This document shows positions 8,773-22,609 of a stretch of 22,609 bases of DNA, piece after piece. Location: NCBI GenBank assembly GCA_945906835.1, contig CAMDRL010000005.1, forward strand, positions 1 to 22,609. The letters run 5' to 3'. Position 1 is the stretch's first letter. Each line of letters opens with the position of its first letter. The position numbers and the translations under genes were made by a program. The DNA comes from Rickettsia typhi. GTDB taxonomy: Bacteria; Pseudomonadota; Alphaproteobacteria; Rickettsiales; UBA1997. A model generated the notes under the pieces. It was not told the DNA's origin, searched no databases, and saw only the letters and a program-made list of their open reading frames with translations.

Positions 8773-8808
8773 AAAAAAAAGATCCTGAAACAAGTTCAGG
8801 ATCTTTTT
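8773..8808. terminator. palindromic repeat family A, copy 2, acting as terminator
   Basis: GATCCTGAA and TTCAGGATC enclose a five-base loop (8781-8803), with an A8 tract on the left and T5 on the right, giving a 14-bp stem when the A/T flanks are included. Read leftward, in the direction of the genes, it ends in eight U residues, a textbook intrinsic terminator after the polyprenol kinase-like gene. The core is the same 22 bases as the repeat at 2348-2369, in the opposite orientation. Confidence 0.8.
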
Positions 8809-9791: not shown

Positions 9792-10787
9792 TTATTGCTG
9801 GTTACGATAACACAATTCTTTTGCCGCAGCCACGATGTCATGAGTTTTTGGCAATGCCAAACTTTCAAGATTTGCCGCGTAAGGTAATGGCGCATCAATG
9901 CTGGCAAGTTTTTTCACAGGAGCATCTAAGTAATCGAAAGCTTCTTCCATCAAAAGTGAGGCTATTTCACTGCCAATTGAAGCGAAAGGGAAGCCTTCTT
10001 CAACAGTAACGCAGCGAGAAGTCTTTTTTACAGATTCAATAATAGTTTCGCGATCCATTGGACGAATTGTGCGAAGATCAATAACTTCAGCCTCTATTCC
10101 TTCTTTAGCAAGTTCTTCTGCTGCTTCTAAAGCATATTTTACAGTAAGAGAAAATGCTACGATTGTTACATCAGAACCTTCGCGCATAATTTTAGCTTTA
10201 CCAATCTCAACAATATGATCATCGTCATAATCTTCTTCAAAAGAAAGGCCGTAAGTAATTTCATTTTCCAAGAAAATTACTGGATTTGGATCGCGAATTG
10301 CAGCTTTTAATAAACCTTTAGCATCAGCAGCGCTATAAGGAGCAACAACTTTTAAACCCGGAATTGCGCCATACCAAGCTGCGTAACATTGTGAATGTTG
10401 CGCACCAACTCTTGAAGCGGCACCATTTGGCCCACGAAAAACTATTGGACATTTAACTTGTCCACCTGACATATAGCTAGTTTTAGCAGCAGAGTTGATA
10501 ATTTGATCAATTGCCTGCATAGCAAAGTTAAAAGTCATGAATTCAACAATTGGCTTTAAGCCAGCAAAAGCTGCGCCAACACCAATACCAGCAAAACCAT
10601 GTTCAGTAATTGGAGTGTCAACAACTCTCTTAGCACCAAATTCAGCTAACAAGCCTTGAGTAACCTTGTAAGCGCCATTATATTCAGCAACTTCTTCACC
10701 CATTACAAAAACTTCTGGAGTTGCTCTCATTTCTTCTGCCATCGCTTCTTTTAAAGCCTCACGGACTGTTATTTTTCTAAGTGTCAT
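9792..10787 (-). CDS. pdhB: pyruvate dehydrogenase E1 component, beta subunit
   Basis: This 331-residue protein is the beta chain of the heterotetrameric, thiamine diphosphate-dependent E1 enzyme. With PdhA it decarboxylates pyruvate and passes the acetyl group to the lipoyl arm of E2. The transketolase-like pyrimidine-binding domain begins at once ([33 protein letters not shown]; the conserved Glu that activates the cofactor is in this [10 protein letters not shown] region). [19 protein letters not shown] and [17 protein letters not shown] are typical, and the C-terminal transketolase domain contains DLRTIRPMD and [14 protein letters not shown]. There is no lipoyl domain fused to its N-terminus, unlike many free-living alphaproteobacteria; this short form is like that of Rickettsia. 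It is separated from pdhA by 115 bases holding a strong inverted repeat. Confidence 0.97.
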
Positions 10788-10823
10788 AATTTTAATTATC
10801 TTTTAGGGTATAAACTTAATTTT

Positions 10824-10890
10824 GTCATTCCCGCGAAGGTGGGAATCCATTTTTCAAAGCAGTCTGGATTCCCGCCTTCGCGGGAATGAC
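10824..10890. repeat. large inverted repeat built of two palindromes, family B (dRS3-like)
   Basis: The two 26-base arms (10824-10849 and 10865-10890) are complementary except at one position and enclose a 15-base loop. Each arm is itself a palindrome of the form ATTCCC-N8-GGGAAT, the same pattern described for the dRS3 repeats of Neisseria. It sits between pdhA and pdhB, so it would form a very stable hairpin in a joint mRNA. There is no T-tract, so 3'-end protection or partial attenuation is likelier than clean termination. A single unit recurs at 20475-20500. Confidence 0.9.
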
Positions 10891-10902
10891 AAGCGGTAAA
10901 TT

Positions 10903-11922
10903 CTATTTATAAATTTCAGTCATAAGCTCAGACTCATCTGGTTCTGGGCTATTTTTTGCAAATTCAACTATTTCATTTACTTCTTCTTTAACGCGATTAT
11001 CAATTTTTTTGATATCTTCTTCTAAAGCAACTTTATTAGTTAAAATGTAATTTCTTAAAGCATCAATTGAATCAGCTTCTTTTTTGCAATTTAGTTCTTC
11101 TTTACTTCTGTAAGTTGCCGGATCAGACATTGAATGACCACGATAACGATAAGTGTCCATTTCAAGCAATATTGGACCATTTCCAGCTCGAACATAATCA
11201 ACAGCTTTTTGACCTTCTTTTAACACTTCAAAAATATCCATGGCATTGATTTTTTTACCAGGAATATTGAAGCCGCCACCCCTTTTATAAAGCTCGTCAA
11301 TTGAAGAAGAGCGATTCAGAGAAGTTCCCATCGCATAATGGTTATTTTCAATGATGAATAAAACTGGCAAATTCCATAATTTTGCCATGTTAAAGCTTTC
11401 ATAAACTTGACCTTGATGCGCTGCACCGTCACCAAAATAACAATAAGTTACATTATTATTGCCTAAATATTTATCAGCAAAAGCAAGTCCCGCACCAATT
11501 GGAACTGAAGCTCCAACAATTCCATGTCCACCGTAAAAATGCTTTTCTAAATCAAATAAATGCATCGAACCGCCTTTGCCTTTTGAAGAGCCGTCTCTTC
11601 TTCCAAGCAATTCTGCCATAATTTTTTTAGGATCAGAGCCAACAGCAATCATATGTCCATGATCGCGATAAGTTGTAATAACTTTATCTCCCTCAATCAT
11701 GGTATGACGCATGCCAGAGGCAATTGCTTCTTGCCCAATATAAAGATGGCAAAAACCTGCAATTAAACCCATACCATAAAGTTGTCCCGCCTTTTCTTCA
11801 AAACGACGAACCAGTAACATTTCTTGATAAAACTTTAATAGATCTTTTTTTGAATAGTTAAGTGGTCCAACTAGACTAATGTTAGCCAGATCAGACTTAG
11901 ACACTGATGATTTTTTAGACAT
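10903..11922 (-). CDS. pdhA: pyruvate dehydrogenase E1 component, alpha subunit
   Basis: This 339-residue protein, from the chosen start, is the alpha chain of thiamine diphosphate-dependent E1. Visible features: LLVRRFEEKAGQLYGMGLIAGFCHLYIGQEA near the N-terminus; the thiamine diphosphate/Mg motif GDGAAHQGQVYESFNMAKLWNLPVLFIIENN (GDG-x27-NN); and the phosphorylation-loop-like YRYRGHSMSDPATYRSKEE. The length matches Rickettsia-type PdhA. The frame stays open upstream to 12024 and could add 34 residues, but family proteins start just before the YSKKDLLKFYQEMLL segment, and a TTGACT -35-like hexamer lies at 12038-12033. ATG 11922 was therefore chosen, although neither start has a clear ribosome binding site. 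pdhB follows in the same direction after a hairpin-forming repeat. Confidence 0.95.
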   Translation of the reverse strand: MSKKSSVSKSDLANISLVGPLNYSKKDLLKFYQEMLLVRRFEEKAGQLYGMGLIAGFCHLYIGQEAIASGMRHTMIEGDKVITTYRDHGHMIAVGSDPKKIMAELLGRRDGSSKGKGGSMHLFDLEKHFYGGHGIVGASVPIGAGLAFADKYLGNNNVTYCYFGDGAAHQGQVYESFNMAKLWNLPVLFIIENNHYAMGTSLNRSSSIDELYKRGGGFNIPGKKINAMDIFEVLKEGQKAVDYVRAGNGPILLEMDTYRYRGHSMSDPATYRSKEELNCKKEADSIDALRNYILTNKVALEEDIKKIDNRVKEEVNEIVEFAKNSPEPDESELMTEIYK

Positions 11923-12110
11923 TTGTAATAATTCTGAATTGTGTTTATCTTCTCTCGATAGAAACTTCTTTACGCATTTCAATGGAACCCTTTTTAAGTT
12001 ATCTCGCGTCGTTGTAAATAGCAAAAATTAAAAGTCAAATGAGGAGACCATTATTACCAGCAATTATCTTACCGCGCATAACTGCAATCTTAAGCAAGAG
12101 GACATCAATG

Positions 12111-12135
12111 TCATGTTGAGGGCAGCGAAACATCT
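12111..12135. repeat. family C repeat, degenerate copy
   Basis: TCATGTTGAGGGCAGCGAAA and the following CATCT match 23 of 25 bases of the left arm of the family C palindrome at 16084. The right arm is only vaguely recognisable (AGAGATACTTGC against AGAGATCCTTCGC), so this copy can no longer fold well. It lies in the 195-297 base gap between the divergent pdhA and znuB-like genes. Nothing else convincing was seen in that gap. Confidence 0.65.
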
Positions 12136-12219
12136 AATGATAACAGAAGAGATACTTGCTTTTTTCAAAAACTCACTAATCCTTATAAATCTTTATAAAG
12201 ACAACTTAATAAAATTTCA

Positions 12220-16073: not shown

Positions 16074-16083
16074 TCACCAAATA

Positions 16084-16148
16084 TCATGTTGAGCGAAGCG
16101 AAACATCTCGTGAAGCTGAAAGAGATCCTTCGCTTCGCTCAGGATAAC
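16084..16148. repeat. palindromic repeat, family C
   Basis: The outer arms TGAGCGAAGCGAA (16090-16102) and TTCGCTTCGCTCA (16129-16141) are perfectly complementary over 13 bases. The interior also pairs partly, with ACATCT facing AGAGAT. It lies directly after the acetyltransferase gene and could end that transcript, though no T-tract follows. A degenerate left arm is at 12111-12135. Confidence 0.85.
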
Positions 16149-16176
16149 AATTTGTTCAAGTAATTCAAAAAATTAT

Positions 16177-17382: not shown

Positions 17383-17829
17383 ATGACTAAATTCATTACT
17401 CAAAAAGTTTTTATTGCTTCTGACCACGCTGGATTTACTTTAAAAGAAACTCTTGTCGAAGAATTAAAAAATTTAAAACTAGAAGTTGTTGATTTAGGAT
17501 GTGATTCTGCAGAAACTTCAGTTGACTATCCAGATTTTGCACAAAAATTAAGCAAAGAAATTACTAATGATTCGAATTATGGAATTTTAATTTGTGGCAG
17601 TGGCATAGGAATTTCAATAGCTGCCAATCGTTTTAAACATATCAGAGCTGCACTTTGTTATAACGCAAAATCAGCAAAACTTGCCAGAGCTCACAATAAT
17701 GCCAATGTTCTTTGCTTAGGCGCAAGATTCATTAAGGCAAAAAATTCTACTGCCTTAGTAAAAGCTTTTTTAAATACCGAATTTGAAGGTGGAAGACATG
17801 GAAGAAGAGTTGAAAAACTATCAAAATAA
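17383..17829 (+). CDS. rpiB: ribose-5-phosphate isomerase B
   Basis: This 148-residue enzyme of the RpiB/LacAB family interconverts ribose 5-phosphate and ribulose 5-phosphate in the pentose phosphate pathway. Visible signatures: VFIASDHAGFTLKE near the N-terminus (phosphate-binding SDHAG), ETSVDYPDFA, the catalytic region GILICGSGIGISIAANRFKHIRAALCYNA with the active-site Cys in ICGSGIG, and ARAHNNANVLCLGAR. The C-terminus FEGGRHGRRVEKL is the typical tail. The end of the gene overlaps the start of trmB by 32 bases, so the two are translated from one transcript. An RpiA is not in the window. Confidence 0.96.
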   Translation: MTKFITQKVFIASDHAGFTLKETLVEELKNLKLEVVDLGCDSAETSVDYPDFAQKLSKEITNDSNYGILICGSGIGISIAANRFKHIRAALCYNAKSAKLARAHNNANVLCLGARFIKAKNSTALVKAFLNTEFEGGRHGRRVEKLSK

Positions 17830-18583
17830 AAAATCAGAAGAAAGGTTAATCAGAAGTTTTGGACGCATAAAAAGCCGCAGATTATCTGATAACAAAAACT
17901 CTCTTCTAGAAAATCTTTTACCAAATTACGAAATCTTTTTTGAAAAAGGAGAAGCCCTCTTTGAAAAAGAGGGTGGATTAATCGCGCCAGCGATTAAGAC
18001 GGGTGATTTTCTAGAGACACCTTTAGATTCAATCTTTACTAAAAAAACCCACAAAAAAACCTCCCTAGAAATCGGCTTCGGCTTCGGAGACTTCCTATTT
18101 GAAAAAGCCAAAAACAACCCTGACACACTTTTCATTGGTTCAGAACCGCATCTAAACGGAGTTATAAATTTACTATCCAAACTACAAAAAGAACCCCTAA
18201 ATAATCTAAAAATTTCAAAACAAGATATCAGAATTCTTTTAGAAAATTTCCCAGAAAGTTTTTTTGATGAAATTTACATCTTATTTCCTGATCCTTGGCC
18301 AAAATTAAAGCATTTTAAAAGACGATTAATTAATACAAATTTTTTAGATTTCTTATCTAAAAAAATAAAACCCACAGGTAAATTAATTATTGCAACCGAC
18401 CACGACTCTTACAAAACATGGATTTTATCAGCAATTTCAGAAAATAAAAATTTTAAATGGCTTGTTGAAAGTAAAAAAGATTGGCAAATATTTCCTGATT
18501 GGTGGATAGAAACTAAATATCAAAAAAAAGCCGCCCGCGAAGGCCGCATATCTGTTATTTTTAACTTAATTAGAAATGTCTGA
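17798..18583 (+). CDS. trmB: tRNA (guanine-N7-)-methyltransferase with in-frame palindromic-element insertion
   Basis: This 261-residue protein, from the chosen start, methylates G46 of tRNAs using S-adenosylmethionine. Motifs: RSFGRIKSRRLS and LLENLLPNY at the N-terminus, SAM motif I LEIGFGFGDFLFEKA, GSEPHLNGV, the DEIYILFPDPWPKLKHFKRRL core, and the C-terminal FPDWWIETKYQKKAAREG. The last matches TxYE/TxFE except that Gln stands where Glu is usual. Residues 53-71 (ALFEKEGGLIAPAIKTGDF) are encoded by a repeat element; without them the LLP-to-LEIGFG spacing, about 29 residues instead of 48, is close to the family norm. ATG 17798 has GGTGG upstream; an earlier TTG at 17783 is less likely. It overlaps rpiB by 32 bases and murB by 8. 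Activity is probably retained, since all core motifs are intact. Confidence 0.95.
   Translation: MEEELKNYQNKKSEERLIRSFGRIKSRRLSDNKNSLLENLLPNYEIFFEKGEALFEKEGGLIAPAIKTGDFLETPLDSIFTKKTHKKTSLEIGFGFGDFLFEKAKNNPDTLFIGSEPHLNGVINLLSKLQKEPLNNLKISKQDIRILLENFPESFFDEIYILFPDPWPKLKHFKRRLINTNFLDFLSKKIKPTGKLIIATDHDSYKTWILSAISENKNFKWLVESKKDWQIFPDWWIETKYQKKAAREGRISVIFNLIRNV
17954..18010 (+). repeat. palindromic element family D, inserted in trmB in frame
   Basis: This 57-base element, running GCCCTCTTT...GGGTGATTTT, is made of hairpin 1 (CCCTCTTT-GAA-AAAGAGGG), a TGGA spacer, hairpin 2 (TTAATCGC-GCCA-GCGATTAA, self-complementary) and the tail GACGGGTGATTTT. Outside hairpin 2 it is nearly identical to the two intergenic copies at 22266-22321 and 22335-22386. 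It is exactly 19 codons long, in phase with trmB, and lacks a stop. Confidence 0.93.
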
Positions 18584-22265: not shown

Positions 22266-22321
22266 AAAATCACCCGTCTCAATCACTTCGCGATTGATCC
22301 ACCCTCTTTTTCAAAGAGGGC
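22266..22321 (-). repeat. palindromic element family D, inverted copy
   Basis: Read on the minus strand it begins GCCCTCTTTGAAAAAGAGGG and ends GACGGGTGATTTT, as in trmB. Hairpin 2 is CAATCGC-GAA-GTGATTG with one G-U pair. Read in the trmB frame it meets a TGA in hairpin 2, and its 56 bases are not a whole number of codons. Confidence 0.9.
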
Positions 22322-22334
22322 TAAAAGCGGTAAA

Positions 22335-22609
<275 letters not shown>

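Follow-up and report, generated by a model that had tools for sequence, protein, structure and literature searches.

The palindrome that interrupts trmB in the 22,609-nucleotide stretch of DNA analyzed here (the window) is, with a probability of roughly two in three, the unit A end of a mobile twin-hairpin element and a non-autonomous derivative of a cassette encoding a DUF559 nuclease. What is new is the presence of a DUF559 nuclease gene between copies of the element, together with DUF559 domains that lie, along with inverted palindromes, in frame in host genes. To our knowledge, the route by which palindromes of the Rickettsia palindromic element (RPE) type come to lie in coding sequence is not established, and DUF559 provides a concrete candidate enzyme, tied by position to the palindromes in six genomes. 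Its role in moving the element is suggested by this position and by co-occurrence, in genomes that are related to one another, and DUF559 could be a passenger. In the proposed mechanism, the nuclease, related to I-Bth0305I and Vsr, would cut target DNA, and repair of the break would copy the palindrome-bounded unit into the new site. Loss of the nuclease gene from most progeny would leave behind paired units or single ones as in trmB; out-of-frame or fold-breaking insertions would be lost, while in-frame insertions in loops and linkers would persist.

The palindromic element in trmB and its dispersal

The trmB gene for tRNA (guanosine(46)-N7)-methyltransferase occupies 17798..18583 on the plus strand (ATG at 17798, stop at 18581-18583, 261 codons plus stop), and its product belongs to the TrmB family (TIGR00091, 124 bits against a cutoff of 113). 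A preliminary description had placed inside it a 57-base, stop-free palindromic element of 19 codons in phase, nearly identical to two intergenic copies, and both statements held. In the open frame, positions 17954-18010 correspond to TrmB residues 53-71 and read ALFEKEGGLIAPAIKTGDF, between LLPNY and the SAM motif LEIGFGFGD. The unit as modeled (unit A) measures 59 nt (17952..18010, plus strand). The intergenic copies lie downstream of tgt at 22266..22323 on the minus strand and at 22333..22387 on the plus strand, diverging from each other with a spacing of 9 nt; the corresponding blastn matches cover 22322-22266 (91% over 58 positions, E 3e-15) and 22333-22386 (86% over 58, E 8e-12). The next-best blastn matches within the window covered only 19-31 nt (E 0.17-0.46), and an Rfam scan of the window gave zero matches at gathering scores. 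Insertion of the palindrome into trmB is near certain.

The conserved core of the element comprises, in order, CCCTCTTTGAAAAAGAGGG (hairpin 1), TGG, a variable hairpin 2, and GACGGGTGATTT. Folding indicated that both hairpins are intact in the trmB copy, where alignment A2 and the fold place the constant hairpin 1 at 17955..17973 (CCCTCTTT GAA AAAGAGGG), TGG at 17974-17976, hairpin 2 at 17978..17997 (TTAATCGC GCCA GCGATTAA), and the conserved 3' end at 17998..18010 (GACGGGTGATTTT), all on the plus strand; the minus strand of this 3' end gives CGTC beside the stem. Across 28 distinct hairpin-2 sequences, 83% of the cells in the seven stem positions were paired, compared with a maximum of 60% when the right stem arms were shuffled 1000 times, and only the correct register of the four tried paired well (0.83 vs 0.25-0.36). 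Hairpin 2 is therefore kept by compensating change. The modeled strand carries GACG, the CGTC tag, in 24 of 28 copies and TGG ahead of the stem, a CCA tail on the other strand, in all 28. The uninterrupted hairpin-2 stem ranges from 2 to 9 bp and reaches at least 8 in 13/28 copies, and its loop is 4-5 nt long in 16/28. A second unit, B (CCTCCTTTGAAAAAGGAGGTGG..CGGAGGATT), pairs with unit A in opposite orientation, and in genome G003 A and B units form arrays with a period of about 140 nt.

The insert as a whole is longer than had been proposed. According to the preliminary description, the protein has the usual family spacing once the 19 residues are removed; the span from GRIKSR to EIGFGFGD is 69 residues in the window TrmB and has a median of 40 and a mode of 37 (43/120) in 120 homologs, so that removal leaves 50. 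The loop is 32 residues above the mode, about 13 beyond what 57 nt explains, and the 57 nt represent a conserved core that is shorter than the full insert. Directly after the core, trmB carries GAGACA, a motif that 26 of 153 distinct copies have no more than 16 nt away from the core; the trmB match to one G003 copy extends to window position 18037, and the stretch following the core (TTCTAGAGACACC...) resembles the spacer 3' of the core in G003 copies. Part of the remaining excess may, rather weakly, be element spacer, with a possible remnant at 18011..18037 on the plus strand (TAGAGACACC...), and the ends of the insert in trmB are approximate. As for its place in the protein, the AlphaFold model, whose fold matches E. 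coli TrmB (3dxx-3dxz), assigns pLDDT values below 50 to residues 50-83, which link a helix to the first strand of the methyltransferase core. The peptide would be translated, and tolerated rather than useful.

The search for further copies that the preliminary description had proposed was run on the nearest family covered, with 61 genomes of uncultured alphaproteobacteria of which several are titled Rickettsiales, a field chosen among at least 80 TrmB loci via locus L003 of Alphaproteobacteria bacterium RIFCSPLOWO2_01_FULL_40_26 (G003). These genomes are fragmented, and those named in the TrmB-locus scan are mostly metagenome bins. Using blastn, the element was detected in 5 of the first 19 genomes, with the G003 copy C5:581-639 as the best match of the trmB element. 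The covariance model R1, which also picks up the paired unit B, gave at least 448 matches at E 1e-3 in 16/61 genomes. Nine genomes are copy-rich, with at least 91 matches in G060, 81 in G003, 71 in G005, 43 in G058, 39 in G061, 34 in G052, 31 in G051, 22 in G004 and 19 in G002; the other seven have 1-4 matches each, the single ones in G042 and G055 being weak. Copies were found both dispersed and within genes, as described below. Of the two outcomes that the preliminary description had named as refuting, neither was observed.

DUF559 nucleases and their inverted flanks

The DUF559 family (PF04480) is present in 24 of the 61 family genomes, and in six of them (G003, G061, G052, G002, G060 and G051) a gene of a short DUF559 subfamily lies directly between copies of the element. 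In G003, unit B (158-205) is followed by the nuclease frame (214-579) and by unit A in reverse (581-639), the copy on C5 that best matches the trmB element in the 19 genomes compared by blastn; in G051, both flanking copies point in the same direction and not inward. This arrangement occurs in 6/9 genomes with at least 19 copies and in 0/52 others (p 1.5e-6, an optimistic value since the genomes are related). At E 1e-3, zero PF04480 matches were obtained in copy-rich G005 (at least 71 copies) and G004 (at least 22). In addition, G058 (at least 43) carries a sister nuclease without an adjoining R1 copy, and G001 carries a sister nuclease without adjoining copies and has zero R1 copies in its genome.

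A profile built from 13 nuclease sequences matched 3hrl (E 2e-30) and the homing nuclease I-Bth0305I (3r3p, E 1e-5), and E29, D56, E67, D69, H73 and D83 are invariant in the 13 sequences. The nuclease model (mean pLDDT 90) had the same two structures as its best matches, with Foldseek TM scores on 3r3p of 0.78 by target and 0.63 by query length, and a weak match to Vsr (E 0.02-0.04). The likeness thus extends to sequence profile and fold for I-Bth0305I and to fold for Vsr (1vsr, 1cw0). I-Bth0305I is intron-encoded, and the database name of 3r3p is mobile intron protein, while the DUF559 domains considered here stand in open host-protein frames, and Pfam at E 1e-10 shows nothing further in the insert. 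In the literature, a section on intein-containing genes in PMC9403480 mentions a DUF559-containing gene and places it in the EDxHD homing family; EDxHD enzymes are described in PMC3943268, and a Caulobacter DUF559 protein is presented as Vsr-like and tied to DNA damage in PMC12907096. No report linking DUF559 to palindromic repeats was found in open-licence PubMed Central. The closest solved relative, 3hrl, is a Neisseria protein. According to the portion of PMC3733652 that treats them, the Neisseria dRS3 repeats are CGTC-1 palindromes, so the pairing of DUF559 with palindromes may reach beyond the alphaproteobacteria.

DUF559 domains also occur inside host genes. In G052, G060, G061 and G021, one is found at the IleS site that holds A or B units in other genomes; in G052 and G061 the ileS frame stays open through DUF559 with more than 400 codons on each side, and the contigs of G060 and G021 break off a short way upstream. 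The flanks of the G052 ileS domain, PSPLRGEGWGEGE..HPHPTLSPQGRG, are an inverted pair. We scored such flanks as the best inverted match between 260 nt on each side of the DUF559 domain, with a threshold of 40 that was chosen after the family result was seen. By this measure, inverted flanks were detected at 18/26 testable family loci, 12/14 further order loci and 17/30 class loci, with 8/26, 2/14 and 13/30 falling below threshold. The family sample covers 28 of 35 DUF559 rows, two with too little flank; L448 and L449 were left out, and five rows were without loci, two of which (G052:C12 and G060:C74) were examined with R1 instead. The class sample consists of the 30 places for which loci were at hand. 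None of the control genes reached the threshold (TrmB 0/27, DapF 0/22, TsaD 0/24; 18/26 vs 0/73, p 6e-14), nor did more than 1/150 random windows in the same loci; control flanks lie outside whole genes and DUF559 flanks outside the domain, a difference that the random windows cover only in part. When ten hand-picked arms from other DUF559 units were folded, nine formed two adjacent hairpins like the window element, the exception being the G052 ileS arm with one hairpin, and in several units the order of parts is also alike, such as CCCTCTCCCC..GGGAGAGGG TGG [stem] CCGGGTGAGGGG at L479.

At the level of the order, the G003 nuclease has matches in 57 of 343 genomes (E 1e-12); 82 matches were read, 46 of which lie in open frames of at least 500 residues. 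Apart from ileS, the hosts include valS (L426, L434), leuS (L441, and L440 by Pfam), recJ (L429, L435), mfd as judged by domains (L495), DNA polymerase III alpha (L514), S-adenosylhomocysteine hydrolase/ahcY (L498), further class I synthetases (L501, L507, L508), Ham1 (L503), Pth at its C-terminus (L500) and a poly(A)/CCA polymerase (L505), the last without inverted flanks. The host frames stay open through repeat, nuclease and repeat, and DUF559 was the sole domain detected in the inserts by Pfam at E 1e-10, which argues against a self-splicing intron or intein around the nuclease. A broader reading, which we advance tentatively and at somewhat less than even odds, is that DUF559 cassettes with hairpin ends form an undescribed selfish class that homes into essential genes and is translated without splicing, and that many alphaproteobacterial palindromes, including the trmB insert and perhaps the CGTC-tagged RPEs, are its non-autonomous ends. 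Were the cassette reading true, CGTC-type palindromes would have in DUF559 the enzyme that they have lacked. As a caution for annotation, mobile inserts may account for odd loops and for DUF559 fusions in metagenome proteins.

Relation to known palindromes and their enzymes

RPEs and Wolbachia palindromic elements (WPE) are dispersed palindromes, some of which lie in frame inside protein genes. The element family of the window resembles them in being dispersed and in frame in several unrelated protein genes, and the preliminary proposal of an RPE-like gene-invading element was supported in this respect. The proposal was incomplete in that the insert exceeds 57 nt, its site is shared with unrelated repeats, and the DUF559 link was not mentioned. 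Compared by description, it differs from RPEs and WPE in that the unit has two hairpins, that different genomes have pairs and singles in the same loops, and that a nuclease gene stands between copies in six genomes.

RPE-1, RPE-4, RPE-6 and WPE are treated in PMC3733652 (Di Nocera 2013) alongside the CGTC-tagged REPs, which, in the passages devoted to them, have CGTC (or TGTC, CCTC) unpaired at one end of the stem and a CCA tail at the other, a stem of 8-9 bp, a loop of 4-5 nt and a unit of 20-40 bp built from one hairpin. The same passages describe these repeats as found mostly in alphaproteobacteria, in paired units, some of them intragenic, and as apparently without a dedicated transposase (PMC3733652). 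The window element shares the CGTC beside the stem, the CCA tail, the alphaproteobacterial setting, the paired units and the intragenic copies. It differs in its additional constant hairpin 1 and its candidate dedicated enzyme, and in part of its copies the uninterrupted stem falls in the range of 2-9 bp and the loop is shorter or longer than 4-5 nt; its conserved unit of about 57 nt, with the second constant hairpin, exceeds the one-hairpin size of 20-40 bp, which hairpin 2 alone would fit.

The CGTC tag and the CCA tail speak for the strongest rival reading, in which some other enzyme or recombination spreads an ordinary CGTC-tagged palindrome like RPE-4 and RPE-6, and DUF559 genes do no more than insert at such repeats. 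Nucleases may home into repeats. We consider this reading unlikely, given that inverted repeats of differing sequence flank DUF559 across the class, that nine of the ten folded arms form two hairpins, and that matched ends of this kind are easier to explain by a cassette than by chance arrival in repeats. Alternatively, copies might spread through gene conversion with one another, by RAYT transposition or by simple recombination.

Mobilization in trans of the element as a REP by RAYT (REP-associated tyrosine transposase) or another Y1 transposase, with DUF559 again a passenger, was considered because the layout of hairpin and tetranucleotide resembles that of REPs. In REP/RAYT systems (REPtrons), too, short palindromes flank one small DNA-processing gene and solo derivatives are scattered, with a tyrosine transposase in the place that the DUF559 endonuclease takes here. 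In favor of this reading, a copy in G054 has a RAYT gene (NF047646, 87 bits against a cutoff of 80) at a distance of 279 nt, and relatives of this RAYT occur in G051, G005, G001 and G033. Nevertheless, by eye, the RAYT genes of G054, G051, G005 and G001 are bracketed by other palindromes, of the GACGGGGTTTGTAACCCCGTCC type; G001 has RAYT and zero element copies; and no relatives of this RAYT were detected at E 1e-3 in seven of the nine copy-rich genomes (G003, G058, G060, G061, G052, G004 and G002). RAYT was thus rejected as the mover of the element, a rejection that concerns this RAYT, as other Y1 transposases exist, for example in G002, G050, G051 and G060, and we rate this reading as a whole as quite improbable, below the CGTC-palindrome alternative. 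As the RAYT-like genes L177, L179, L180 and L183 are bracketed by palindromes of their own, of the same type, the family seems to harbor several palindrome-enzyme systems side by side.

Recurrent insertion sites in host proteins

Whether residues 53-71 of TrmB are an insertion found only in the window was a check proposed in the preliminary description. The four closest homologs, TrmB clusters with 90-99% identity, carry the same peptide. In two of the four, LIA..AIK is replaced by SIA..AIE, which, judging from the protein, would correspond to a hairpin-keeping change of the DNA pair TTA..TAA to TCA..TGA. Two further homologs, P0009 and P0011, read KPSLK(N/D)(R/K)(V/M)DQ..HFET(G/S)DF, which at the protein level resembles the element translated in a second frame and with hairpin 2 altered. 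In a TrmB tree of 81 rows, built with the loop left out, the five closely related sequences with the window peptide form one clade (100/90), and the group of P0009 and P0011 (84/58) falls in a separate clade (100/96) with P0010, which carries a CHPERSEG-type repeat in its loop. A third repeat, LKQVQDD..HPELVSGS, is carried by P0020 and P0029, whose clade of four (100/96) includes P0046 and P0079, both without it. The TrmB loop was therefore probably entered more than once, with one gain and several losses as a possible alternative for a given repeat family. A search of residues 42-83 against the protein database, weakened by its word filter, returned P0001 alone among two candidates.

Four other TrmB-loop repeats were seen, in G050, G052, G003 and G005. 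Those of G003 and G005 have other copies in the 86 and 102 kb examined; those of G050 and G052 had zero further copies in 17 and 45 kb and are thus not claimed to be dispersed. We take the TrmB-loop repeat peptides to be translations of known intergenic palindromes, apart from the G003 case, which was read in DNA. That the peptide is instead an old lineage-specific loop extension resembling the repeats by chance is highly improbable: the five related sequences do form a single clade and the loop does vary in length among relatives, but the DNA matches a dispersed copy at 91% over 58 positions with both hairpins intact, P0009 and P0011 in their separate clade seem to have the element in a different frame, and the blastn copies in the window and in family genomes, together with the R1 dispersal, already contradict it.

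For the copies within genes, regions around 120 places were taken, the loci scanned in all numbered 187 with 413 copies, overlaps counted, and the in-gene counts rest on loci around the better-scoring copies. We identified 18 distinct open frames with a copy and at least 60 codons on each side, 17 of them in recognizable genes of 13 families (NCBIfam): ileS, tsaD, dapF and rarA (two each), recG, cysS, glmU, zapE, cobT and trmB, and genes for a glutamate-synthase-beta/hydroxylase protein, a YejF-like ABC ATPase and a DltB-like protein. CobT (L142) and the DltB-like protein (L252) are counted as probable, their best profile stretch lying only downstream of the insert, and L273 was dropped because its named domain lies on one side only. 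Both orientations, and more than one reading frame, are represented among the copies.

Several of these sites are shared among genomes. In DapF, the segment GCDQLI..EIYNSDG has 20 residues in 21/32 loci, and the linker holds unit pairs in G005, G051 and G060, in opposite arrangement in G051; three loci are without the motif, four others have 21-33 residues or are inserted, and L359 reads as 60 residues because the anchor fell elsewhere. At the TsaD site between NRLxNV and KKLVIAGG, G060 has unit A, G061 has unit A reversed, and G005 has an A-like stretch with a reversed unit; G052 and G003 have other repeats there. The IleS site from GKFTSEIFD to LSLKxRQVF has 33 residues in 12/32 loci, which are empty, and is occupied by an A or B unit in G002, G003, G051 and G058; G050 and G055 have repeat-like inserts of a different nature there. 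Seven loci were without the site at first, three of which were read later, and six have 45-74 residues without the element. Unrelated repeat-like peptides in frame (RPQGSPLQ..VGAGLVSAR, TKHEAR, PPQGEGNHPPLEGES and WTGFVTPSTRS..VTNPV) were also observed at these element-family sites in tsaD (L366, L386) and ileS (L391, L402).

On these sequence comparisons, the loops of TrmB, DapF, TsaD and IleS are hit repeatedly, also by unrelated repeats, and accept insertions time after time. It seems to be in loose linkers of the chain that insertions survive, as suggested by the low-pLDDT TrmB loop and the recurrent linker sites. Such sites offer a natural experiment in which essential enzymes accept about 15 to 170 extra residues.

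Other repeats were also noted in the window. Right after the open frame 3-1355, positions 1403-1567 contain a perfect inverted repeat of 25 nt (TAGACACTGTTAGCTAATTATTTTT), with 115 nt between its copies and with inner arms of 59 nt, which looks like a miniature transposon. A 28-nt inverted pair (TTGTCATTCCCGCGAAGG..., 96% complementary) occupies 10822-10892, between the frames 9792-10787 and 10903-12024, and represents another intergenic palindrome. The repeat ATGTTGAG(C/G)G(A/C)AGCGAAACATCT, found at 12107-12157 and 16076-16155, with 76% likeness over 51 nt and one palindromic copy, represents a further family. Finally, a palindrome of the GATCCTGAAACAAGTTCAGGATC type, or half of one, is present at 8781-8803 and 2354-2376 and belongs to the family that fills the TrmB loop of G003.
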